Shown in pieces: positions 7,945-34,314 of a DNA stretch of 34,314 nt (its first letter is position 1; every line of letters begins with the position of its first letter). The notes beneath the pieces were generated by a model. It was not told the origin of the DNA and made no database searches. It saw only the letters and a program-made list of their open reading frames with translations. This DNA comes from Gemmatimonadota bacterium (lineage in GTDB: Bacteria; Gemmatimonadota; Gemmatimonadetes; Gemmatimonadales; Gemmatimonadaceae), in contig VGVM01000028.1 in NCBI GenBank assembly GCA_016874035.1, positions 1 through 34,314 on the forward strand. The letters are read 5' to 3'. Position numbers and translations under genes: made by a program.

Positions 7945-9294
7945 CTAGCACTTCGATGCGTCAGTGACGCAAGGGTTGGCCAGGCGCTCGACGTTCGTGA
8001 TCGGGAACAGCAACCCGACCTGCGTCAACGCCGCGTCGTAGTTGGAACTGGTCGTCCACTTCGGATCCTTGATGTTGAACCGATACATGTCCATCAAGCG
8101 GCGGCGCATGAGCCACAGCTGGGCCTGGCGCTCGTAGACCAGCATCGCCTGGTTGGCGATCTGGCCGCTGAACGCCGGCTTGCCGTCCAGCGCACGCACC
8201 GTGTTGATCTGTGTCGTGAAGCCCGCCGCGTCGCCTGCAGCAAGCGACGCTTCGGCCAGGATCAGCCGCAGCTCGCGCGTGTTGGTGATCCAGAGCGTGC
8301 CCGACAGCGTCCCAAACGCCTTGAAGGCGGTGAGCCGTGCCTGCAGCCGCGGGTCCGCGGCGTTGGTGATCGGGTCACGGAGCGCGGCGACGTACTTGTC
8401 GTTCGTGCTCAGCGGGTTGACCACATACGCACGGCCCGGGGCGCTCTCGTTGCGGCCGTTCACTTCGAACCACAGGTTGATGCCAGGGGTCGCTTCCTGG
8501 TTGTTGACCAGGTTGAACTCCTGGTCCGGCGAAGCGAGCGCAAGCGCTGCGTTCGCATCCGCCACGGCGCCGGCGTCGTTCACCAGCGGCTGCGCGGGTG
8601 CCGACGCGCCCTTCGGCGTCACCTTCTGCCACACACCCTTGCCGTGCTTCACACGGGCGCGGTAGGCGAGGATGTTGAACCGGTCGGTGTTTGTCGTGGC
8701 AAGGGCGAACGCCTTGTCCAGATAGCCGACCGCCGTGTCATACAGCTTGAACATGTTCGTGCGACCCACCGGAGCGGCCGCGATCGTCTTGTTCGAGAAC
8801 GCGAAGTCATCGTACATGTCCGCGATCGACGCGTACACCACCGCGCCGTACACGTACGTGCGCATGAGGTCCGCACGGTTGGCGAGCGTGCCGGCCGTGT
8901 TGAAGCCCTCGAGACGCTTGATGGTCTGGTCAGTGAGGTAGCGCGCCTCGGCGGACCAGGGGAACGCACCGTCGGCGAACTCGTTGATGAAGTTGCCGAT
9001 GATGCCCTGGTCGAGCTCGCCCCATGCGTCGCGCGAGCCGATCCACTCCATTTCGTCCGTTGCGTCTCCGTAGACGACGGACGTCGCCGCCAACATGCGC
9101 GTCGTTGCGCCCAGCACACCGTTGGCCTCAGGACCAGCGGCCGCCGGGTTGTCCAGCGAAGACTCGGCAATGTTGTTCGGATTCTTCACGTCGAGCAGGG
9201 ACTGGCAGGCCCCGGCGACGAGCAGGACGCTCGCGCCGGTGGCCAGTCGAAGTGCGCGACGGGTCTGAGCGAAGATGCTGTGGGGAGTCATCAT
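7945..9294 (-). CDS. SusD/RagB-family outer-membrane lipoprotein
   Basis: SusD-like proteins form the extracellular substrate-binding lid over a SusC TonB-dependent channel. The 449-residue product has a lipoprotein signal (SVLLVAGAC, Cys at about residue 30). This is followed by SLLDVKNPNNI, typical of the family's mature start, and helical repeats through the middle. The C terminus has LLFPITNVERLANPC, matching the SusD pattern LFPIPxxExxxNP. The length is at the lower end for SusD proteins. The first of two consecutive ATGs lies two bases after the susC stop with no separate ribosome-binding site, so the pair is translationally coupled. The substrate cannot be inferred: no glycoside hydrolase, peptidase or regulator gene sits beside it. 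Confidence 0.88.
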   Translation of the reverse strand: MMTPHSIFAQTRRALRLATGASVLLVAGACQSLLDVKNPNNIAESSLDNPAAAGPEANGVLGATTRMLAATSVVYGDATDEMEWIGSRDAWGELDQGIIGNFINEFADGAFPWSAEARYLTDQTIKRLEGFNTAGTLANRADLMRTYVYGAVVYASIADMYDDFAFSNKTIAAAPVGRTNMFKLYDTAVGYLDKAFALATTNTDRFNILAYRARVKHGKGVWQKVTPKGASAPAQPLVNDAGAVADANAALALASPDQEFNLVNNQEATPGINLWFEVNGRNESAPGRAYVVNPLSTNDKYVAALRDPITNAADPRLQARLTAFKAFGTLSGTLWITNTRELRLILAEASLAAGDAAGFTTQINTVRALDGKPAFSGQIANQAMLVYERQAQLWLMRRRLMDMYRFNIKDPKWTTSSNYDAALTQVGLLFPITNVERLANPCVTDASKC

Positions 9295-9296
9295 CG

Positions 9297-12200
9297 TTAG
9301 AAGCCCACTCGGATGTTGAAGGAGATCTGCTTCGGAATCGGGAACCCGAACGCGTCAATGGATTCGCCGACGTTCTGGTCCGTGCCGCCGCCAGAGCCGC
9401 GGCCGTAGACGTTGATCTCGGGATCCACGCCCTTGTACTTGGTCCACATCATGAAGTTGCGCGCGGCAAACGTCATGGAGAGATCGCTGCCGCCGACCTT
9501 GCTGGCCCACGATGCCGGCGCGGTGTAGGTCAAGCTCAGTTCACGCCAGCGGATGAAGTCACCCTTCATCTGCTGGTTCAGGCCGTCGTACGGCGACAAC
9601 GCGGCGATGGACGCCCAGTACTCCTTGGCGGCATCGAGACGCTGCTGCGGCGTGCTCGCCGGGTTCATCATGGTCATCTCGACCGTGGCACGACGCTCGG
9701 TGTTGCCACCGTTCGTCGGGCTGCCGGTGCGGAAGCCCCGCGTCAGGTTCGAGATCGTGTAGTTGCCGGCACGGTACTCGAAGTTCGTCGAGACGCGCCA
9801 GTTCTTGCGCCACGTGAGCGAGCCACCGAACGCACCTTCGAAGTCCGGAAGCGGCTTGCCGTCCCAATGGTCGAGCGGATCGCCGTTCGCGTTGTCGTCC
9901 GACTGCATCGGGTTGATGTTCGTCAGCGTACGCGGCGACGCGAGGTATGCCAGCACCTCGGCCTCGGTATCCGGGACGCGGTTGCCGTTCAGGTCAACCG
10001 GCAACTGCCCCGCCTGCAAGCACGGCCCACCAGCCGCTTGCGGCTTGCTGTAGTTGAACGCGGTCGTGCGGCCGGCCGGGCAGGCCAGCGGCAGGCGCGC
10101 ACCGAAGAACGTACCCGGCGCGTAGCCTTCCTTGATGAAGTTGCGGTAGCGCGGATAGCTGCCACCGACCTTGAGCGGCGGCGCGCCGCCCATGCTCGTC
10201 ACGAGCTGGCTGAGGAACGCCGTCGAGGCGAACACGTCCGCCGAGAGGTTGGCGCGGTTCACCAGGTAGGCCTTCATCTTGACGTCATACCCAAACGACC
10301 GCATCTCGCCGATGTTGTCGAGCTGCAGCGACCGGAACCCGCCGGACACCGGGAACTGACGCGCCACGAGCGCATCCTTCAGCGTCCGCTGCCAACGCGT
10401 CACGTCCACCGACACGTTGTCGTTGAACAGGCCGAACTCGGCGCCGAACTCGAGCTCGGTCGAGATCTCCGGCTTCAGCTCGGGGTTGCCGAGGTTGCCG
10501 GGCACCAGGCCCGGGCCAGTCGCCGCCGTCAGCGGAAGGTACGTGGTCAGCTTGTCGAATGCGCCGGGCTGACGGCCCGCCTGGCCAAACGCGCCGCGAA
10601 TACGGAACGTGGACAGATACTTGCCGAGGAAGCTGTCGGCGTATCCCGCCCGATCGCTGAGCACGAGCGAGAACGAGGTCTGCGGGTACAGGACGCCACC
10701 GGACGTCTTGCCGAACGCGGAGTTGTAGTCATACCGCCCGCCGACCGTCGCGAAGATCCAGTCGCGCCAGCCGAGCTGTTCCTGCGCGAAGAAGCCGGTG
10801 TTCACGATCGAAGCGAACGACTCGAACACCTGCGGGCTTGCCGCGCCACCGAGCACTTCGATGCCGGGGCCCGGGAATGCCGTCGCGTTGCCGCCTTCGG
10901 TGTTGGTCTGGGTCACGTATCCCTGACCACCGAACACGAGGTTCGACGACGTATTGAAGGGAAGCGTGCTCGTCCAGCCGCCGTTTACGGACAGCGTGAG
11001 CACCTGGTTCGTGCGATTGTCCACGCTGGCGAAGCCGTTGTTGGCGCGGTTGATGCGCAGGTCCAGGTTGTTACCGAAGCCAAGGAACTGCGTTGACCGC
11101 GTGCCGGTGTAGTCGATGCCGAACGTGGCGTCAAAGTTGAGCGACGCCGACGGGATGTAGCTGGCACGGAGCGACCCGTTGTAGTGCCGCGCATCCTGCT
11201 TCACCGTCTCCTGCACCATCTCACGCTGCGAACCGAAGGCACTGGCGCCCGTCGGATTGCCCGAACCCTTGCACAGCCCGTTCCCCATGCTGCCAAAGCT
11301 CGGGTCGGTCGGGCTGCTCTTCGACGCGTCGCACTGCGCGTTTTCCGGCTTCGAGAAGAGGCCGATCGTGTACGGCGCGTAAATGCTGTTGTTGTTCTGC
11401 GGGATTTCGTTGTGCGCCAAGGAGAACAACGAGTTGAACTGGAGCTTGAAGTCCTTCGAGGGCGTCAGGCCGATCGCCATGGTGCCCTGATACTTGTTGT
11501 TGATGTCCTTCATGAAGACGCCGCGCGTGGCGCCCTGGGCATCCGGCCAGTTGAAGTTGTTGGCCGTGAACGGGCCGTCTTCGCGGTAGGCGCGTGCCGA
11601 GGCGAAGTAGGTCGAGATCGGCGTACCGCCCGTCACCTGACCGCTCACCGTGGTTGCCTTGCCCGTCTCAAAGAGCTGCGTGGGGACATCCTGGTTGATC
11701 ACCTGATACCGGGTGATCGGGTAGCCGAAGTGCGTGGCCAAGCGGGCTGCCTGCGTGTCGGCGCACGCCGCCGCCGTAGCCGTGATTCCGCAGGTACGGC
11801 CGGCGAACCCGTACTGGTTCTCGATCCGGCCCTTCGGGTACGTCTTCGCCGTCTGGTCCACCTCGAGCGACCACTTGGTGTTCGAAACCGCGCCCTTCTT
11901 GGTCGTGATCAGGATGACGCCGGCCGATGCTTCCGTGCCGTAAAGCGTCGCAGCAGCGGCGCCCTTGAGCACTTCGACCTTTTCGATCGACGCCGGGTTG
12001 ATGTCATCGAGGCGCGACGGCCGACCGCCGCCGCCCGTGCCGACGAATCCGCTGAACCCGCCGCCGTTGTCAATGCGGACGCCGTCCACATAGACGATCG
12101 GCTCGTTGTTCTGCGAAAGCGACGCGTTGCCACGAATACGGATGCGTGAGCCCTCACCGGTCGTACCGGACGACGGCAGCAACATGAGGCCCGGTTCGCG

Positions 12201-12677
12201 GCCCTGAAGCGCGGTGGAGAAGTCGGCCACCGGCATGGTCGTCGGCATCTCAACGGCGGCCACGGTGTTGCCCAGCTTGCGGGCCTCCACCTGGCTGCCG
12301 CCGGTTCCGGTCGTCACGACCGCGGAGAGCTCGATCGCCGATTGGCGAAGCTCGATGCTCACCCGACCCACGCCACCAGCGGTGACGTTGACCGTCGCCG
12401 TCGTGGCGGCATAACCAATGAGGCGGGCCCGAACGGTCTGCGAACCCACCGCAACGTTCGGGATGCGGAACGTACCCTGTGCACTGGTCAGGGCGCCTAC
12501 AGTGGCGCCAGTACCCTGGATTGACACCTGCACGTTCGCCAGCGGACGCTGGGACGCGGCATCAATCACCGTGCCTTCCACGGTGCCTGTGCCCTGTGCG
12601 GCCAACGCGCCCGGAAGCGCGATAGTCGCCAAGGCCACCAGGACCGCAGTGGCTCGCTTCAACACCGATTGCATCAT
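9297..12677 (-). CDS. SusC/RagA-family TonB-dependent outer-membrane transporter
   Basis: A 1126-residue channel protein with an N-terminal signal peptide (hydrophobic core VLVALATIALPGALAAQ). A carboxypeptidase-regulatory-like beta domain follows at residues 30-110 (GTVIDAASQRPLANVQVSI). The plug contains RIRIRGNASLSQNNEPIVYV and the SusC-type motif EVLKGAAAATLYGTEASAGV. The remainder is a barrel ending in the aromatic NIRVGF. There is no N-terminal sigma-signalling extension. The ATG at 12677 has a strong GGAGGGAAGG site. It is coupled to susD and preceded by its own promoter and by a terminator after rpsG, so it is an independent transcription unit within the str region. Imported substrate unknown. 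Confidence 0.93.
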   Translation of the reverse strand: MMQSVLKRATAVLVALATIALPGALAAQGTGTVEGTVIDAASQRPLANVQVSIQGTGATVGALTSAQGTFRIPNVAVGSQTVRARLIGYAATTATVNVTAGGVGRVSIELRQSAIELSAVVTTGTGGSQVEARKLGNTVAAVEMPTTMPVADFSTALQGREPGLMLLPSSGTTGEGSRIRIRGNASLSQNNEPIVYVDGVRIDNGGGFSGFVGTGGGGRPSRLDDINPASIEKVEVLKGAAAATLYGTEASAGVILITTKKGAVSNTKWSLEVDQTAKTYPKGRIENQYGFAGRTCGITATAAACADTQAARLATHFGYPITRYQVINQDVPTQLFETGKATTVSGQVTGGTPISTYFASARAYREDGPFTANNFNWPDAQGATRGVFMKDINNKYQGTMAIGLTPSKDFKLQFNSLFSLAHNEIPQNNNSIYAPYTIGLFSKPENAQCDASKSSPTDPSFGSMGNGLCKGSGNPTGASAFGSQREMVQETVKQDARHYNGSLRASYIPSASLNFDATFGIDYTGTRSTQFLGFGNNLDLRINRANNGFASVDNRTNQVLTLSVNGGWTSTLPFNTSSNLVFGGQGYVTQTNTEGGNATAFPGPGIEVLGGAASPQVFESFASIVNTGFFAQEQLGWRDWIFATVGGRYDYNSAFGKTSGGVLYPQTSFSLVLSDRAGYADSFLGKYLSTFRIRGAFGQAGRQPGAFDKLTTYLPLTAATGPGLVPGNLGNPELKPEISTELEFGAEFGLFNDNVSVDVTRWQRTLKDALVARQFPVSGGFRSLQLDNIGEMRSFGYDVKMKAYLVNRANLSADVFASTAFLSQLVTSMGGAPPLKVGGSYPRYRNFIKEGYAPGTFFGARLPLACPAGRTTAFNYSKPQAAGGPCLQAGQLPVDLNGNRVPDTEAEVLAYLASPRTLTNINPMQSDDNANGDPLDHWDGKPLPDFEGAFGGSLTWRKNWRVSTNFEYRAGNYTISNLTRGFRTGSPTNGGNTERRATVEMTMMNPASTPQQRLDAAKEYWASIAALSPYDGLNQQMKGDFIRWRELSLTYTAPASWASKVGGSDLSMTFAARNFMMWTKYKGVDPEINVYGRGSGGGTDQNVGESIDAFGFPIPKQISFNIRVGF

Positions 12678-14140: not shown

Positions 14141-14143
14141 CTA
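14124..14143 (-). terminator. Small hairpin abutting the acyltransferase stop codon
   Basis: On the minus strand the stop codon TAG is followed by GCGCGGGCTTCCTGCCCG, which folds as CGGGC, loop TTCCT, GCCCG. The stem is short and lacks a T tract. It could be a weak terminator or a copy of a dispersed palindromic repeat. Confidence 0.35.
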
Positions 14144-15616
14144 CAGGTCCACCGCCTTGTACACCGGCAGTGCGTCCCGGTCGCGGACGGATTCCGCGAA
14201 GTCGCCGAGCAGATGCACGATGGAATTCGCGTAGTAGCTCACCAACTCCCGGCCGGTTTTCAGCACTACGATTCCTTCATATGTGCGCGAAAGCGCGCGG
14301 CGGCTCCACAACAACTCGACAGCGCGCTCGACCACTCGATCGGTCGGCTCGTCGGCCCCAACGACGACCCGGCCTTCGTCGGCGAGTGAATCGCGCAGCT
14401 GGTCCACGCGCTCGAGCAGCCTCGCTCGCGGCACGTAGTCGCCTTCGAACGTCTGGATCGCTGCGCAAACGATTGGCACAGCCGTGACGGGCAGGATGTC
14501 GCCGATGCGGCGCATGGCGTCGTCCGCCAGCTTCTGGACCTCACCCAAACGCTGTTCACGCGGCAACTCGAACAACTGGATGCCGTCCGCCTGCAGTCGC
14601 TTGAGCCTGGGGGCCACCGGCACCGGCGCGCCGATTACCACGACGGCGTCGCCGTGCCGCTTCCAGCTGCGCGTCACGATGCGCGACACGTTCCACGTGA
14701 TGTTCCAGAGCACGATGCTGAACTGCACCAGTCGGTTGGGCGGACGGTGCCCCGCGTCGGGGTTGAGCTCGCGCAGCAGTGAGCGATCCTCGAGCACGCG
14801 GTCGTAGTTGATCGCGACCGGGACGATGTACATGCGTTCCGCCGCTGCCGGGTCGCGCGCGACGCCGAGCATGTAATCGAGGAGGCCGATCTTCACGGGC
14901 CGGAACCGCCCGTCGCGGGAGAGGCCGCCCTCGGGGAAAATGCCTTGCGTCACCCCGTTGGCCGTGATGAGCTGCACGTAGCGCTCGAGCACGGTGTGGT
15001 ACAGCGGCTCGCGAAAGCGCCGACGCACGAAGTACGCGCCGAATGTCTTGAAGACATAGTCGAGCGGGAAGACGCGCGCCCATTCGCCCACCGCGTACGA
15101 AATGGCCACCTGCCCCGCGAGCGCCCAGCCGGCCAGCACGTAGTCGGCATTGGAGCGGTGGTTCATCAGGTACACGACAATCGAATCCTTCGGCAGCGCG
15201 GCGAACTCCGCGGCGCCACGGTCAATGACCCGGACGCGGAAGAACAGCTTCAGCAGCGACTCGGCGATCGCGAGCCCGATGCGATAGTAGAACCACAGCG
15301 AAAACTGCGGGACGATCTCCTGGACGTAGCCGCGCGCGTGCTTCCATGCGTCGTCTTCGCTGACACCCTGCTCGCGCGCGTGAGTGCGAACCGCCTCCCC
15401 CACGACCGCGTCGGCAAGCACGGCCGCGACGATACCGTCGCGATCCGCAAACTTGTACCGGTCAACCCGGGCGCCGAACTGACGGTGCGCCCGGAGCGAC
15501 GCCCGGTGCACCCAACGACGCCACCAAGCGGCGAGCAGCACCCCGATCGCGACGACAACGACCAACGCCGCGGCCACCCCCAACGCAAACGCCAGCAGGC
15601 TGGAGCGTGTGGGCAT
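14141..15616 (-). CDS. PlsB-like glycerol-3-phosphate/phospholipid acyltransferase
   Basis: Membrane-bound acyltransferase of the PlsB/PlsC superfamily, probably acylating glycerol 3-phosphate or a lysophospholipid. Residues 8-30 are a transmembrane helix followed by a basic WWRRWVHR stretch. Motif I is NHRSNADY with the catalytic H153-x4-D158. GAYFVRRRF (193-201) is the motif II region and FPEGGLSRDG (227-236) is motif III, with VPVAINYDR further on as motif IV. The order and spacing fit PlsB-type enzymes, but at 491 residues it is much shorter than E. coli PlsB (about 800), so the exact substrate is uncertain. It follows the MFS gene by 89 bases in the same direction and may be co-transcribed. 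No clear ribosome-binding site. Confidence 0.82.
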   Translation of the reverse strand: MPTRSSLLAFALGVAAALVVVVAIGVLLAAWWRRWVHRASLRAHRQFGARVDRYKFADRDGIVAAVLADAVVGEAVRTHAREQGVSEDDAWKHARGYVQEIVPQFSLWFYYRIGLAIAESLLKLFFRVRVIDRGAAEFAALPKDSIVVYLMNHRSNADYVLAGWALAGQVAISYAVGEWARVFPLDYVFKTFGAYFVRRRFREPLYHTVLERYVQLITANGVTQGIFPEGGLSRDGRFRPVKIGLLDYMLGVARDPAAAERMYIVPVAINYDRVLEDRSLLRELNPDAGHRPPNRLVQFSIVLWNITWNVSRIVTRSWKRHGDAVVVIGAPVPVAPRLKRLQADGIQLFELPREQRLGEVQKLADDAMRRIGDILPVTAVPIVCAAIQTFEGDYVPRARLLERVDQLRDSLADEGRVVVGADEPTDRVVERAVELLWSRRALSRTYEGIVVLKTGRELVSYYANSIVHLLGDFAESVRDRDALPVYKAVDL

Positions 15617-15705
15617 CAGGTTGCGCGCCGTGCCGCGCTAGCGACGGAGCAGGATCACCGCGACCGCGGTCGGCAGGACCACGGTGGATCGGATGCCTCC
15701 GGGCA

Positions 15706-17019
15706 TCATTGCGATCCGAGGGCGGCCCAGTCGCGCCTGGTATCGGTGACCGGCTTGAGCACCCAGTAGGAGAACGCCACCATCGCCAGCAGGGACGAGA
15801 GGGCGATCGCCTGCCCGGTGAGCTCGTGCAGCCCGCTGCGCTCCACTGCGACATACGTGATCGCGCTCCACAGGAGCGGTCCGGTCACGGCCGAGAACCG
15901 GCCGACCATTCCATACAGTCCGTAGAACTCGCCGATTCGGTCGGGCGGCGTCAGGCGGAGCATGTACGGTCGGTCAGCCGCCCAGATGCCGCCCATGGCA
16001 ACACCGGCCTGCGCGGCCACGAGGTACAGCCACCCGACCGGAAGCCGGAAGAACCCGATCCACATTGCAAGCGCAAACGTCTCGATCCACAGCCACAGCA
16101 CGATGTTGAGCGTCCGCTTCGGGCCGATGCGATCCACCAACCACCCCCACACGAAGCCGCCCACGATGGCGAACGAGATTGCGGACATCATGACCAGCTG
16201 CGCGGTCTTCTCGCCGGTTTCCTTCGTTCCGCCGGCGGCGATGGCGACGTTCACGGTATAGAGCGACATGTACGCGATCACGGTGTTGATCGCATCGGTG
16301 TAGAAGATGCGCCCGAACAGGAAGCGCAGCAGCCCGGGGTACTTGTGCCCCTCGCGCAGGGTACGGATGGTCTGTGCGGTGGATTCCCGCAGCATCTGCA
16401 CCCCGAACACGGGTCGCGGGTTCGGGTTTCCACGCTCGCGCACCCAGATGAAGCACGGGATCGAGAGCAGCACGAACACCGACGCGATGATCGTGAAGAG
16501 GAGCGGCTTGTCCTTGGTCCCGAGCATCAGGCCGATCCCCACGGCGATGTAGCTGCCGAGGTAACCCACGCCGACTCCGATTCCGCTGATCCGCCCGCGG
16601 TTCTGCTCGGTGGTCACTTCGGGGAGCAACGAGTCGTAGAACTGCAAGCCGGCCTGATACGCCGCGTTGCCGACCACGAACAGCGTGGCGGACATGATGT
16701 ACGACCCGCGGGCGAGCAGCGCCGTGCACAGGCAGCACAGCAACGTGCTCACGATCAGGAACGGCATGCGTCGCGAGGCACGGTCGGTCATCGCACCCAG
16801 GAGCGGTGAGATGATGAAGATGATGCCCATCGACAACGCGGTGATCAGGCCGTAGGTCGAGTCGGCCCGCTGGGGTCCCACCTCATCGCGGACGTACAGC
16901 GAGAAGTAGAGCGACACGACGCCCATGGAGAAGATGGTGTTCGCCATGTCGTACAGCACCCAGCTCGCGACTGCGCGGCGGGGGATCACGCGATTCGGGG
17001 ATTCGGCGATCTCAGCCAT
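15706..17019 (-). CDS. Atg22/UMF1-like major facilitator transporter
   Basis: A 437-residue polytopic membrane protein with about 12 hydrophobic segments. Family marks are ASWVLYDMANTIFSM in the first helix, GAMTDRASRRMPF in the loop after helix 2, AYQAGLQFYDSLLPEV in helix 4 and SGIGVGVGYLGSYIAVG in helix 5. These are typical of the UMF1/Atg22-like branch of the MFS, which includes the yeast vacuolar amino-acid effluxer. The bacterial substrate is not known. The ATG lies 34 bases after the rpoC terminator hairpin and shows no Shine-Dalgarno sequence, so it may be expressed by read-through or from a promoter within rpoC. The acyltransferase gene follows. Confidence 0.85.
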   Translation of the reverse strand: MAEIAESPNRVIPRRAVASWVLYDMANTIFSMGVVSLYFSLYVRDEVGPQRADSTYGLITALSMGIIFIISPLLGAMTDRASRRMPFLIVSTLLCCLCTALLARGSYIMSATLFVVGNAAYQAGLQFYDSLLPEVTTEQNRGRISGIGVGVGYLGSYIAVGIGLMLGTKDKPLLFTIIASVFVLLSIPCFIWVRERGNPNPRPVFGVQMLRESTAQTIRTLREGHKYPGLLRFLFGRIFYTDAINTVIAYMSLYTVNVAIAAGGTKETGEKTAQLVMMSAISFAIVGGFVWGWLVDRIGPKRTLNIVLWLWIETFALAMWIGFFRLPVGWLYLVAAQAGVAMGGIWAADRPYMLRLTPPDRIGEFYGLYGMVGRFSAVTGPLLWSAITYVAVERSGLHELTGQAIALSSLLAMVAFSYWVLKPVTDTRRDWAALGSQ

Positions 17020-30265: not shown

Positions 30266-31678
30266 CTACCGGACGGACTTCCAGCGCGTCCCGCTGGGCG
30301 AGTCCTCAATGGCTATCCCCTTCTCTTCCAACGACTTGCGAATAGCGTCGGCAGCGGCAAAATCGCGGCGTGCGCGCGCTTGCGTGCGTGCCTCAAGCTG
30401 AGCCTCGACCCAATCCGCCAGTTCGCCGCCGCTGGTCCCTCGATCGGGAACGATGTCCAGCACGCCGTTCACCTGGCGGAACGCCTCACGCGCACGGCCG
30501 AGGGCGGCGGGATCGGAACCGCGTGAATCCAGTGCACGATTCGCCGCGCTGATGAACTCGAACAGCGCGCCGACCGCCCGCGGCGCGTTCAGGTCGTCGC
30601 TGAGCACGGTCGTCGCCTCGACCAACAGCGTATCCGCCGCTTCGGAGAGCGCCGGGCTTCCCGCGGTTTCGCGCGCGAGCCGATCGGAGAAATCGCCAAT
30701 GCGGCGCACGGCCTCGATCGAGGCCTCCAGCGCCGCCGCCGAGAGGTTCAGCTGCTTGCGGTAGTGCGTCGAGAACACGAAGTGGCGCAATGCGGCGGCG
30801 CTCACGCCCTGCTCCCGGAGGTCGGCCACCGTGCTCACGTTCCCAACTCGCTTGGCCATCTTCGCGCCGTCGGTGAGCAGGAACTCCCCGTGGCACCAGA
30901 ATCGCGCGAACGGCTTGCCCGTCGCCGCTTCGCTCTGTGCGATCTCGTCCTCATGGTGCGGGAACATCAGGTCCACGCCGCCGGCGTGGATATCGAGCGT
31001 TTCGCCGAGCAGCGCCATGGCCATCGCCGAGCACTCGAGATGCCAGCCGGGCCGACCGCGTCCCCACGGGGAATCCCACGCGGCCGCGCAGGCCTCATCT
31101 TCCGGCTTGGCCGATTTCCAGAGCGCGAAGTCCTGTGCGTTCTCCTTCGCGTAGTCGTCCTGCGCGACACGCGCGCCGGTACGGATTTTACGTGTGTCGA
31201 GTCGCGAAAGGCGGCCGTAGCCCTCGAACTTGTCGATCGCGAAGTACACCGAGCCGTCGTCCGCGCGATAGGCGACACCGTTCGCCTGGAGCCGCTCGAC
31301 CAATGCGATCATCTCGGCGATGTACTCGGTCGCGCGCGGGTAGTGCTCGGCCGCCTGGATGCGCAGGTATTCGCGGTCCGCGTGGAACGTCGTGACGACG
31401 GGGTCGGTCAGCGCGCGGATGGTAATGCCACGTTCCGTGGCGCGCTTGATGATCTTGTCGTCCACATCCGTGAGGTTCATCACCTGCTCGACGCCCCAAC
31501 CGCGCATGCGGAGTACACGGCGGAGCAGGTCCTCGAACAGGAACGTGCGGAAGTTCCCGAGGTGCGCCGGGTTGTACACCGTTGGCCCGCAGGTGTAGAG
31601 GCGCACGGTGGAACCGTCGGCCGGGGCGAACGGTTCGACCTCGCCGGTCAGCGAGTTATAGAGGCGGAACTCGGGCAC
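30266..31678 (-). CDS. cysS: Cysteine-tRNA ligase
   Basis: Class I synthetase that charges tRNA-Cys. The 470-residue length fits. TCGPTVYNPAHLGNFRTF holds the first zinc cysteine and the HIGH-equivalent motif, here HLGN. GWHLECSAMAM and GGVDLMFPHHEDEIAQSE hold the other zinc ligands. The KMSKS-equivalent is KMAKR in TDGAKMAKRVGN. The C-terminal region is the helical DALR-type anticodon domain. The start is a GTG nine bases after the upstream pseudo-ABC gene's stop, so the two are probably co-transcribed. No clear ribosome-binding site. The motif variants deviate from consensus at positions known to vary in this enzyme family. Confidence 0.95.
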   Translation of the reverse strand: MPEFRLYNSLTGEVEPFAPADGSTVRLYTCGPTVYNPAHLGNFRTFLFEDLLRRVLRMRGWGVEQVMNLTDVDDKIIKRATERGITIRALTDPVVTTFHADREYLRIQAAEHYPRATEYIAEMIALVERLQANGVAYRADDGSVYFAIDKFEGYGRLSRLDTRKIRTGARVAQDDYAKENAQDFALWKSAKPEDEACAAAWDSPWGRGRPGWHLECSAMAMALLGETLDIHAGGVDLMFPHHEDEIAQSEAATGKPFARFWCHGEFLLTDGAKMAKRVGNVSTVADLREQGVSAAALRHFVFSTHYRKQLNLSAAALEASIEAVRRIGDFSDRLARETAGSPALSEAADTLLVEATTVLSDDLNAPRAVGALFEFISAANRALDSRGSDPAALGRAREAFRQVNGVLDIVPDRGTSGGELADWVEAQLEARTQARARRDFAAADAIRKSLEEKGIAIEDSPSGTRWKSVR

Positions 31679-31687
31679 GCGTGGAAT

Positions 31688-32644
31688 TTAGCCACCGACC
31701 ACCTTCGCCGTACGGTCGAACCCGTTTTCCGCCACGCGGGGCGCGAGCGGTGCGAGCGGTGCGAGCGCGCCTCGACGTCGCGACGGCGCGTCCTCAGGAA
31801 TGATCCGCGAACCATGCACCTCGATTCCAAGCGCGCGACACTCGCTCAGCACCTGTTCCGACGTCCAGCGTTGCAGCGGCACGCGCAGCGTCCGCCCGCG
31901 GCGATAGACCGACGGTACCCGCAGCGCGAGCCGGGACCGCGCTTCAATCGGCATCGAGACGTCGAGCTCGATCGTCTCGCGAAGATCCACCGTTCCCGTG
32001 ACCGTGCCGCCGACCATCCGCACGACTCGATCCGGCGCGGCGGGTGCACATGCCGTGGCATCGCGCGTACCGACGACGATGGCGATCGCGTCCGCCCGCA
32101 GGAACCCGAGGACCTGCGCGAACCGGGCGCGCTCGACACCGGACAGGCCGTCGAACGGCCGGTCGAGCAGCAGCACGCGCGGATCAGCGAGCAGGGCGCC
32201 GGCCAGGGCCACCCGCGCCGAGACGCCGGGCGTGAGGTGCCCGACACGGATTCGCGCAAACTCATCGAGTGCCGCGCGCCGCATGACGATGCCGACGCCG
32301 CTGTCGTCGGCCGAAGACTCATCGTCGCGCTGGGCGGCCGCGAACTCCAGCCACGGACGCACTGCGAGGTACGGGTGCGAGTCCGCCCGCGCGGGCGCGT
32401 ACGCCGCCCGGGCGGCCGACCACCGGTGCGAGCCGAACCAGCGCACCTTGCCGGTGTCCGGGCCTACCAGGCCGGCGGCGCAATGCAGCAGACTGGTCAT
32501 GCCGGCTTCGGCGCCTGCCTCGACCACGACGAGCTCGCCGGCGCGCACATGCAGCGAAGCGTTCCGGAGCGCGGTCGCGCCGCTCGAGGCGTAGCGAAGG
32601 CCGACCTGCTTGAGTTCCAGCGCAAGGGGTTCCATGCGCCGCAC
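31688..32644 (-). CDS. ABC-type ATPase-like protein with degenerate catalytic motifs
   Basis: The first 215 residues have the layout of an ABC-transporter ATPase: LKQVGLRYASSGATALRNAS, then a P-loop position, VRPWLEFAA, a signature position, and ADPRVLLLDRPFDGLS. Yet the key residues are replaced. The Walker A region is EAGAEAGMTS, with Met49 for the lysine. The Q-loop glutamine is Ala85. The signature is LTPGVSA in place of LSGGQ. Arg162 replaces the Walker B glutamate. The H-loop position is Arg194 in GTRDA. It probably does not hydrolyse ATP in the usual way. A 100-residue C-terminal part is not recognised. The frame opens at GTG 32644, but ATG at 32635 (MEPLALELKQ) is the more likely start. 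No permease domain gene is adjacent. Confidence 0.75.
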   Translation of the reverse strand: MRRMEPLALELKQVGLRYASSGATALRNASLHVRAGELVVVEAGAEAGMTSLLHCAAGLVGPDTGKVRWFGSHRWSAARAAYAPARADSHPYLAVRPWLEFAAAQRDDESSADDSGVGIVMRRAALDEFARIRVGHLTPGVSARVALAGALLADPRVLLLDRPFDGLSGVERARFAQVLGFLRADAIAIVVGTRDATACAPAAPDRVVRMVGGTVTGTVDLRETIELDVSMPIEARSRLALRVPSVYRRGRTLRVPLQRWTSEQVLSECRALGIEVHGSRIIPEDAPSRRRGALAPLAPLAPRVAENGFDRTAKVVGG

Positions 32645-32712: not shown

Positions 32713-33780
32713 TCATTCAGGCGCCGGCGGGTCGCCGTACACGCGCTCCTGGAGCACGCGGCGCACCAGCACCAGCGTCACCGCAAGGAGCGGGACGGCG
32801 ACGAGCAGCCCGGCGGGGCCGAGCAAGGTCCCGACCACGAGGACCGACAGGATCGTCAGCACCGGCGGGAGGTTGACGCCTTTATGGAAGATCATCGGCG
32901 CGACGACGTTGCCTTCCACCACGTGCACGACAATGCCGAGCAGCAAGACGAGCACGACTTGTGTCGCGCCGGCGTCGAGCACGAACAGCGCCGGCAGGAT
33001 GGTGGAAACCAGTGTCCCGAAGAACGGTACGATCGCCGCCAGTCCGGCGAAGATCCCGAAGGCGAGCCAGTACGGCACGTCGAGCACCCAGAGCCCGATC
33101 GTCGTGAGGAGTCCCAGCGCCGCCATGTTGAACAGCTGGGCGAACACCCAGGAGCGGAGCGCGGTTCCCATGGAGGCGAGCACGTCTCGTGTCGCATCGC
33201 GGTGCCGAGGCGGGGCAAGGCGAACGACGAAGTCCACATACAGCTGTGGCGCTCGCGCCAGGTAGACGGCCATGACCAGCATCGACACGAAGTTGATCAG
33301 TCCATGCAGCAGGTTGAACACCTGCGGGAACAGCCCGGCCACGAGCGATTGCGCCTGGGAGACGACGGCATCGACGATATCCTGCTGCCGGTCCCCGCCG
33401 ACGAACGGCGCGAGCGCCGGGACCCGGTCAACGAGGCGAGCGAGCCAGGCCTGCCACGCCGAGACATACGTCGGCAAGTTGGTCGCGAGGGCGCGCGTCT
33501 GCTCGACGACCGGCGGCACGAGCAGCGCCTCGATCCCCCAGAGCGCCAGCAGCGTCGCGATGATCGCCGCCGTGAAGGCGAGCGGGCGCGGCCATCTCGT
33601 GCGGGCGACGATCGCGTCGGTAAACGCGCTGAGGTACACGGCGACCAGCACCGCGATGAACAGCAGCAGCAGCAGGCTGACGGCGCGCCCGGCGAGCCAG
33701 AGCCCGAGGACGAGCACGGCGACAGCCGCGACGCCGGGCGTCAGCGTGACGCGACGCGACGCGGTAACGGATTCTGGCAC
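32713..33780 (-). CDS. AI-2E family transporter (PerM-like)
   Basis: A 355-residue membrane protein with about eight hydrophobic segments. The two-helix start (VAAVAVLVLGLWLAGRAVSL) is followed by a soluble stretch with ALATNLPTYVSAWQAWLARL. The C-terminal membrane core includes FGIFAGLAAIVPFFGTLVST and then VEGNVVAPMIFHKGVNLPPV. These positions are the hallmark of the AI-2E/PerM family. Members have been linked to autoinducer-2 export, to sodium/proton antiport and to unknown roles, so the substrate is open. The start is a GTG 18 bases after the pspA-like stop. The product ends YGDPPAPE. Confidence 0.88.
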   Translation of the reverse strand: MPESVTASRRVTLTPGVAAVAVLVLGLWLAGRAVSLLLLLFIAVLVAVYLSAFTDAIVARTRWPRPLAFTAAIIATLLALWGIEALLVPPVVEQTRALATNLPTYVSAWQAWLARLVDRVPALAPFVGGDRQQDIVDAVVSQAQSLVAGLFPQVFNLLHGLINFVSMLVMAVYLARAPQLYVDFVVRLAPPRHRDATRDVLASMGTALRSWVFAQLFNMAALGLLTTIGLWVLDVPYWLAFGIFAGLAAIVPFFGTLVSTILPALFVLDAGATQVVLVLLLGIVVHVVEGNVVAPMIFHKGVNLPPVLTILSVLVVGTLLGPAGLLVAVPLLAVTLVLVRRVLQERVYGDPPAPE

Positions 33781-33798: not shown

Positions 33799-34314
33799 CT
33801 ACTTCTTTTCGATTTCGGCCTGCACGGTCTCTTCGCCGGCGCCGAGCGCTTTCGGGCGCGCGGCCGCGCCGGGCCCGAGCAGCCCCATCTTCTCCTTGAG
33901 GGCCAGCAGCTGCTGGTCGGCGCTGGCCGAGCCGGCCACTTTCTCGAGTCGCTTGAAGTCGCCGGCGAGCTTGTCCCCGGAGAACTCCTCATCGATCTCC
34001 GATGAGGCTTTGATCATGCGCTCGTTCTGGTTGACCTTCTCCTCCATCCGCGCAAACGCCTCGAACGCGCTCTTGTCGGACATGGACGACAGGGTCGAGG
34101 CAATGCGCTTCTGGGCTTCGGCCCTGCGCTGGCGCGCCACCAGGATGTTCTTCTTGCGCTTCGCTTCCTCGATCTTGTCGTTGAGGTCACGGAGCGAGTT
34201 CTTGAGTTTCTCGGTCTCGAGCGCCTGCGCTTGCCAGGTTGTCTCGAGCTGTTGCGCATGGGTGGCGTGTTCGTTCTGCCGCAGGAGCGCCTGCTTCGCC
34301 AGGTCGTCGCGGTT
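33799..34314 (-). CDS. PspA/IM30-family membrane-stress protein, 5' end outside window
   Basis: The frame is open to the right edge and gives the last 171 residues of a coiled-coil protein. It contains long charged helices (KLKNSLRDLNDKIEEAKRKK) and the stretch MEEKVNQNERMIKASSEIDE, typical of PspA/Vipp1 helices. The tail ends ETVQAEIEKK. PspA-type proteins bind the inner face of the cytoplasmic membrane and assemble ESCRT-III-like rods. The N-terminal amphipathic helix and the start codon are not visible. Next downstream is the AI-2E-family gene at 18 bases, so the two may share a transcript. Confidence 0.8.
   Translation of the reverse strand, partial: NRDDLAKQALLRQNEHATHAQQLETTWQAQALETEKLKNSLRDLNDKIEEAKRKKNILVARQRRAEAQKRIASTLSSMSDKSAFEAFARMEEKVNQNERMIKASSEIDEEFSGDKLAGDFKRLEKVAGSASADQQLLALKEKMGLLGPGAAARPKALGAGEETVQAEIEKK

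Follow-up and report, generated by a model that had tools for sequence, protein, structure and literature searches.

The window, that is, the whole 34,314-nucleotide stretch of contig VGVM01000028.1 that was analysed, carries a degenerate ABC ATPase gene on the reverse strand between the gene of an AI-2E family transporter (AI2E) and cysS, with a pspA/IM30-like gene further upstream (Table 1). The host genome belongs to the Gemmatimonadaceae. The reading frame is open throughout, giving 315 amino acids from the likelier ATG or 318 from a GTG (start codons are guesses throughout the analysis), and scores as coding by codon usage. The gap to the start of cysS at 31678 is 9 bases. The intact frame and tight spacing described in an earlier note, which had been made from the sequence alone, are thus both borne out. 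A chance open reading frame at 31688-32644 was ruled out by the codon score, homology and the frame control given below. Elsewhere in the window, the str ribosomal operon is interrupted between fusA and rpsG by genes of a TonB-dependent receptor (SusC-like) and of a lipoprotein-like, possibly SusD-like, protein (7945-12677, reverse strand), and the interval from rpsL to rpoC contains genes for an acyltransferase and for an Atg22-like MFS transporter (14141-17019, reverse strand).

Table 1. Features of the pseudo-ABC-ATPase gene and its neighbours in the window; residues are numbered from the ATG at 32635.
Feature	Position	Strand	Remarks
cysS, cysteinyl-tRNA synthetase	30266..31678	-	Syntenic downstream neighbour
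Pseudo-ABC-ATPase gene	31688..32644	-	Stop codon 31688-31690; likely start ATG at 32635
RVAE tail motif	31727..31738	-	Conserved in protein sequence across the family
C-terminal domain, predicted ferredoxin-like	31796..31978	-	Residues about 220-280; most constrained part of the protein
H-loop position	32063..32065	-	Arg191 for His
Walker B RVLLLDR	32159..32179	-	Asp kept; catalytic Glu replaced by Arg159
Degenerate ABC signature LTPGV	32222..32236	-	Residues 134-138, for LSGGQ
Q-loop position	32390..32392	-	Ala82 for Gln
Degenerate Walker A AGAEAGMT	32495..32518	-	Met46 for Lys; first Gly replaced by Ala
AI-2E family transporter gene	32713..33780	-	Syntenic upstream neighbour
pspA/IM30-like gene	33799..34314	-	Syntenic upstream neighbour; cut by the window edge

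The ABC-ATPase layout claimed for the protein was found both in its sequence and in its predicted structure. It matches Pfam ABC_tran (PF00005) with E=1e-8 and 36 bits against a cut-off of 25, and its AlphaFold2 model (mean pLDDT 82) has the ABC fold, matching ABC NBDs with a Z of about 25. The protein is an ABC ATPase by descent. A functional ABC ATPase is expected to have a Walker A motif GxxxxGK[ST], an LSGGQ-like signature, the Walker B Glu and the H-loop His, all of which are missing here. All five substitutions listed in the earlier note (Walker A Lys, Q-loop Gln, LSGGQ, Walker B Glu and H-loop His) were confirmed, and two more were added, namely the change of the first Walker A Gly and the replacement of the D-loop Asp by Ser. 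The substitutions are common to the clade of the window protein, in which the Walker A Lys is replaced by Met, Thr or Leu.

The C-terminal region, which could not be placed earlier, was assigned by structure prediction and by alignment with sister families of the order. It is predicted to form a beta-alpha-beta-beta-alpha-beta, ferredoxin-like domain (pLDDT 85) and can be aligned with the C-terminal domain of the intact sister-family ABC orthologues described below. By HMM, the domain is present in 40 of 80 rows. A small domain of this type likewise follows the ABC ATPase in the PmtC basket domain, the NosF R-domain and the MetN C-terminal domain, and full-length NosF, MetN and PmtC chains were among the Foldseek hits. 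However, the likeness is one of fold only: the PDB fold matches of the C-terminal model are generic for ferredoxin-like structures, the best being Atx1 (Z 7.4), an unrelated fold of this kind with which the PmtCD basket domain (Z 6.5-6.6) is tied, all at Z <8 and without a sequence match. PDB and Pfam profile searches with the domain gave nothing above noise or threshold; it may be an accessory domain of the DUF4162/basket type.

In the genus of the window, 13 other genomes carry the gene, with AI2E on one side and cysS on the other in every case where the contig extends far enough. For the family, the stretch from AI2E to cysS, or that upstream of cysS, was taken from about 80 genomes, most of them metagenome-assembled, and presence or absence rests on profile hits. 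An ABC-derived frame was present in more than 50 of these stretches; the family set comprises 70 sequences, genus members included. About 70 sampled Gemmatimonadaceae genomes have a degenerate copy in this slot, the gene order being pspA-AI2E-ABC-cysS; in some genomes AI2E is gone and pspA-ABC-cysS is retained. Of 67 cases, 66 have the pseudo-ATPase on the same strand as cysS, and in 37 the gap between the two is no more than 100 bases. In G103 (L152:211-825), a miniature form occupies the usual slot but runs counter to cysS and AI2E, apparently having been inverted. Two genomes, G001 and G014, have a gene for a Ser/Thr kinase-TPR protein between the pseudo-ATPase and cysS (L041:5114-7483, reverse strand; L045:7347-9740, forward strand). 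In a quick tree, a single branch (SH-aLRT 97) separates the locus copies of Gemmatimonadaceae and sister families from 27 other ABC ATPases. By synteny and tree, the ATPases of this slot are orthologous.

Intact ATPases occupy the same slot in sister families of the order (G043, G045, G046, G047, G054, G059 and G156). They have the motifs GPNGAGKTT, [LY]S-R-G-M/Y, LLLDET and SHD as well as the C-terminal domain, and most are directly preceded by a gene for a protein with 5-6 predicted transmembrane segments. This partner has a weak ABC2_membrane_2 match (E 0.08) and may be called an ABC-2-like permease from its size, topology and position and from the class of the ATPase (DrrA/GldA-like). The intact orthologues score best against the DrrA, GldA and lantibiotic-protection ATPase models, all far below the curated cut-offs, so that no named family is assigned. 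With their C-terminal accessory domain and adjoining small membrane partner gene they resemble ABC-2-type exporter ATPases (the DrrA, GldA, NodI and NosF-like subfamily), unlike the window protein, which lacks all catalytic motifs and the partner. In G037, G052 and G153, the membrane gene is kept beside an ATPase that has begun to lose its motifs. The only Gemmatimonadaceae genome with an intact ATPase is G035, where it is followed by a 210-amino-acid membrane protein and then by cysS; this contig is short and lacks pspA and AI2E. Given the intact ATPase of G035 and the partnered orthologues of the sister families, a functioning ABC-2-like exporter is the probable ancestor. The sister families also have a gene for a DUF1611 protein between AI2E and the exporter genes (L289:3165-4241), and several of their genomes have, by eye, a gene like that of an MscS-type mechanosensitive channel just upstream of cysS (L286, L300, L301, L303-L305).

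At the window locus there is no permease alongside, AI2E and cysS flanking the gene directly. Furthermore, no relative of the ancestral membrane partner was found in the window's own genome, in a search whose query had no positive control there. Of the structural or regulatory subunit proposed earlier, the pseudo-ATPase part stands, with substitutions that are clade-wide, and a subunit of a nearby transporter is not supported in that form. The protein could nevertheless serve a transporter in trans, as the degenerate member of an NBD heterodimer whose active ATPase, like the permease, is encoded elsewhere; the genome does encode other ABC ATPases and ABC-2 permeases, and in the three genomes named above the membrane partner is still found next to a degenerate ATPase. 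There is also a precedent in ABC exporters with degenerate nucleotide sites, which lack the catalytic Glu as the window protein does (PMC7544095). In those exporters, however, one site of the pair is degenerate within a working transporter (PMC7544095), and their NBDs still bind ATP, the loss being partial, whereas here the whole subunit is degenerate, without Walker A, signature or an adjoining transporter. In addition, the 160-250-amino-acid forms of 28 genomes lack the helical domain, the segment that contacts the permease and the other NBD. An in-trans role is possible for full-length forms such as the window protein; as an account of the gene it is unlikely.

The motifs have been lost to different extents. 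Among the 70 family copies, the Walker A Lys survives in 59, the catalytic Glu in 15 and the H-loop His in 5, and the signature core is intact in only 8 of the 77 rows scored across the family and sister families (G035 and seven sister-family genomes). Parsimony on the cysS tree (a quick tree) requires at least 5 changes for the Walker A Lys and 5 for helical domain loss, counts that have no direction by themselves and receive it from the intact sister families. The helical domain is missing from the 28 miniature copies, and the C-terminal domain alone is left in G042, G050, G060 and G158. By the criterion used, the gene is absent in 28 sampled genomes, many genomes without it still keep its flanking genes, and no remnants were seen in the 13 gaps checked. 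The absent class includes G004, whose frameshifted copy was left out of the alignment; in this orthologue (L034:6859-7745) the frameshift separates the ABC part from a C-terminal domain that is well conserved, and it could be an assembly error or a very recent break. In the earlier note, intact orthologues were to mark the window copy as a recent loss. They do exist, in the sister families and in one genome of the family, and point to descent from an active ATPase, but the whole genus is degenerate in this slot, so the loss is old. A recent pseudogene was ruled out by this genus-wide degeneracy together with the low dN/dS reported below.

The retention of the Walker A Lys in most family copies, mini forms with little beyond the P-loop and tail included, would fit a nucleotide-binding switch, in which GK[S/T]T relatives would bind ATP or GTP but not hydrolyse it, and the window clade would have lost even this secondarily. 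The Lys was, however, lost independently about 5 times, which argues that nucleotide binding is not essential to the role, and a switch cannot account for the window protein itself; this explanation is quite improbable.

Selection was measured as pairwise dN/dS (Nei-Gojobori). For the window gene against its nearest relatives, the ratio is 0.25-0.33 with the other two forward frames above 1, in keeping with the view that the gene is not simply decayed; dS in this clade is 0.9-1.7, near saturation, so these ratios are approximate. For the pseudo-ATPase gene it is 0.09-0.43, with 0.03-0.30 for AI2E and 0.01-0.12 for cysS in the same genomes. The ratio of the C-terminal part is lower than that of the ABC part in 12 of 12 pairs. 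In the frame control, the other two forward frames exceeded 1 in all comparisons of degenerate and mini forms; the exception was the C-terminal-only pair, with a less sharp contrast (0.27 in the coding frame against 0.89 in another forward frame). The antisense frame sharing third positions has a low dN/dS, as expected. The remaining protein is under purifying selection.

These ratios bear on the main rival explanation, a dying gene whose frame stays open only for the sake of the essential cysS downstream (polarity), its amino acids being free to drift. The gene does adjoin cysS in most genomes, its motifs were lost repeatedly and the gene itself outright, and the relative G004 has a frameshift. 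On the other hand, full, mini and C-terminal-only forms all have a dN/dS well below 1, constraint on the protein persists in G001 and G014 despite the kinase gene before cysS, and the tail motif is maintained as amino-acid sequence. A dying gene explains neither the selection nor the tail, and is considered unlikely.

The tail motif, R(x)[VI]AE, occurs within the last 32 residues of 53 of 70 family copies (not independent events, the copies being related), compared with a mean of 0.94 and a maximum of 5 in 2000 shuffles; elsewhere in the same proteins its frequency is about 0.01 per 32 residues. It persists in forms without the helical and C-terminal domains. Codons vary at all four positions, as expected for constraint at the protein level. 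A T-box or tRNA element behind the motif was ruled out, as the codons vary freely and there is no tRNA there. In genus g46 (G115, G072 and G095; 3' ends of L164, L166 and L167), the place of the motif is taken by an Arg/Ser-rich tail of 35 residues, RRKRSAARIA...TYGRSLRSPQ, which is nearly identical among the three while the rest of the protein diverges. The position of the conserved tail, near the stop and near cysS in many genomes, might also suggest a cis-acting leader in which translation or the nascent C-terminal peptide regulates cysS. The distances vary too widely for this, from 1 to 24 codons between motif and stop and from 8 to about 3900 bases between stop and cysS, and the kinase gene intervenes in G001 and G014, which makes such a leader very hard to credit.

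The reading preferred here, with a probability of about 0.55, is that an orphaned exporter ATPase has been kept as a non-catalytic protein, likely an adaptor or stabiliser near PspA. It builds on the homology, orthology, motif loss, intact partnered orthologues, purifying selection and tail enrichment described above. The starting point would have been a two-gene ABC-2-like exporter, whose ATPase subunit was encoded between pspA-AI2E and cysS in the order's ancestor. In Gemmatimonadaceae, the membrane partner would then have left the locus, and the orphaned subunit would have lost ATP hydrolysis, judging from the signature and catalytic Glu, which are gone nearly everywhere; in the window clade, where the Walker A Lys is gone, ATP binding was probably lost too. 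In other lineages the gene would have vanished altogether. Since selection has preserved the protein after the loss of partner and catalysis, a new, non-motor job is probable. Selection still acts on the C-terminal ferredoxin-like domain and on the R(x)VAE tail. These would most likely be docking surfaces, and the protein may work as an adaptor or stabiliser in the envelope-stress setting around PspA, which as the most constant upstream neighbour would be the first candidate partner. Absence of the gene from many genomes that keep the flanking genes makes the role dispensable and counts against the adaptor model, and the retention of different parts in different lineages (P-loop and tail, or the C-terminal domain only) argues against a single fixed function.

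Pseudoenzymes such as pseudokinases and pseudo-ATPases are cases in which fold and selection outlast catalysis and the role shifts to binding; they are mostly known as single dead paralogues. The window protein resembles them in general, having kept its fold and selection after catalytic loss. A wider reading, put somewhat short of an even chance, is that of an order-wide exaptation, which would have produced a non-catalytic adaptor family that keeps the C-terminal ferredoxin-like domain, the R(x)VAE tail or both while the ABC core is free to be eroded or excised, so that its forms range from an active enzyme down to a P-loop stub or a lone accessory domain. A search of open-licence PMC papers found no description of an ABC ATPase being taken apart step by step over an entire order, and nothing on the pspA-AI2E-ABC-cysS locus. 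Here, one locus presents all stages in dozens of genera, from the intact ATPase with its partner through the degenerate ATPase with partner and the orphaned dead protein to miniature and domain-only forms, with selection still acting. With this series one can test which parts of an ABC ATPase remain of value after its motor function ends, and the four-residue tail points to a binding partner that recognises it.
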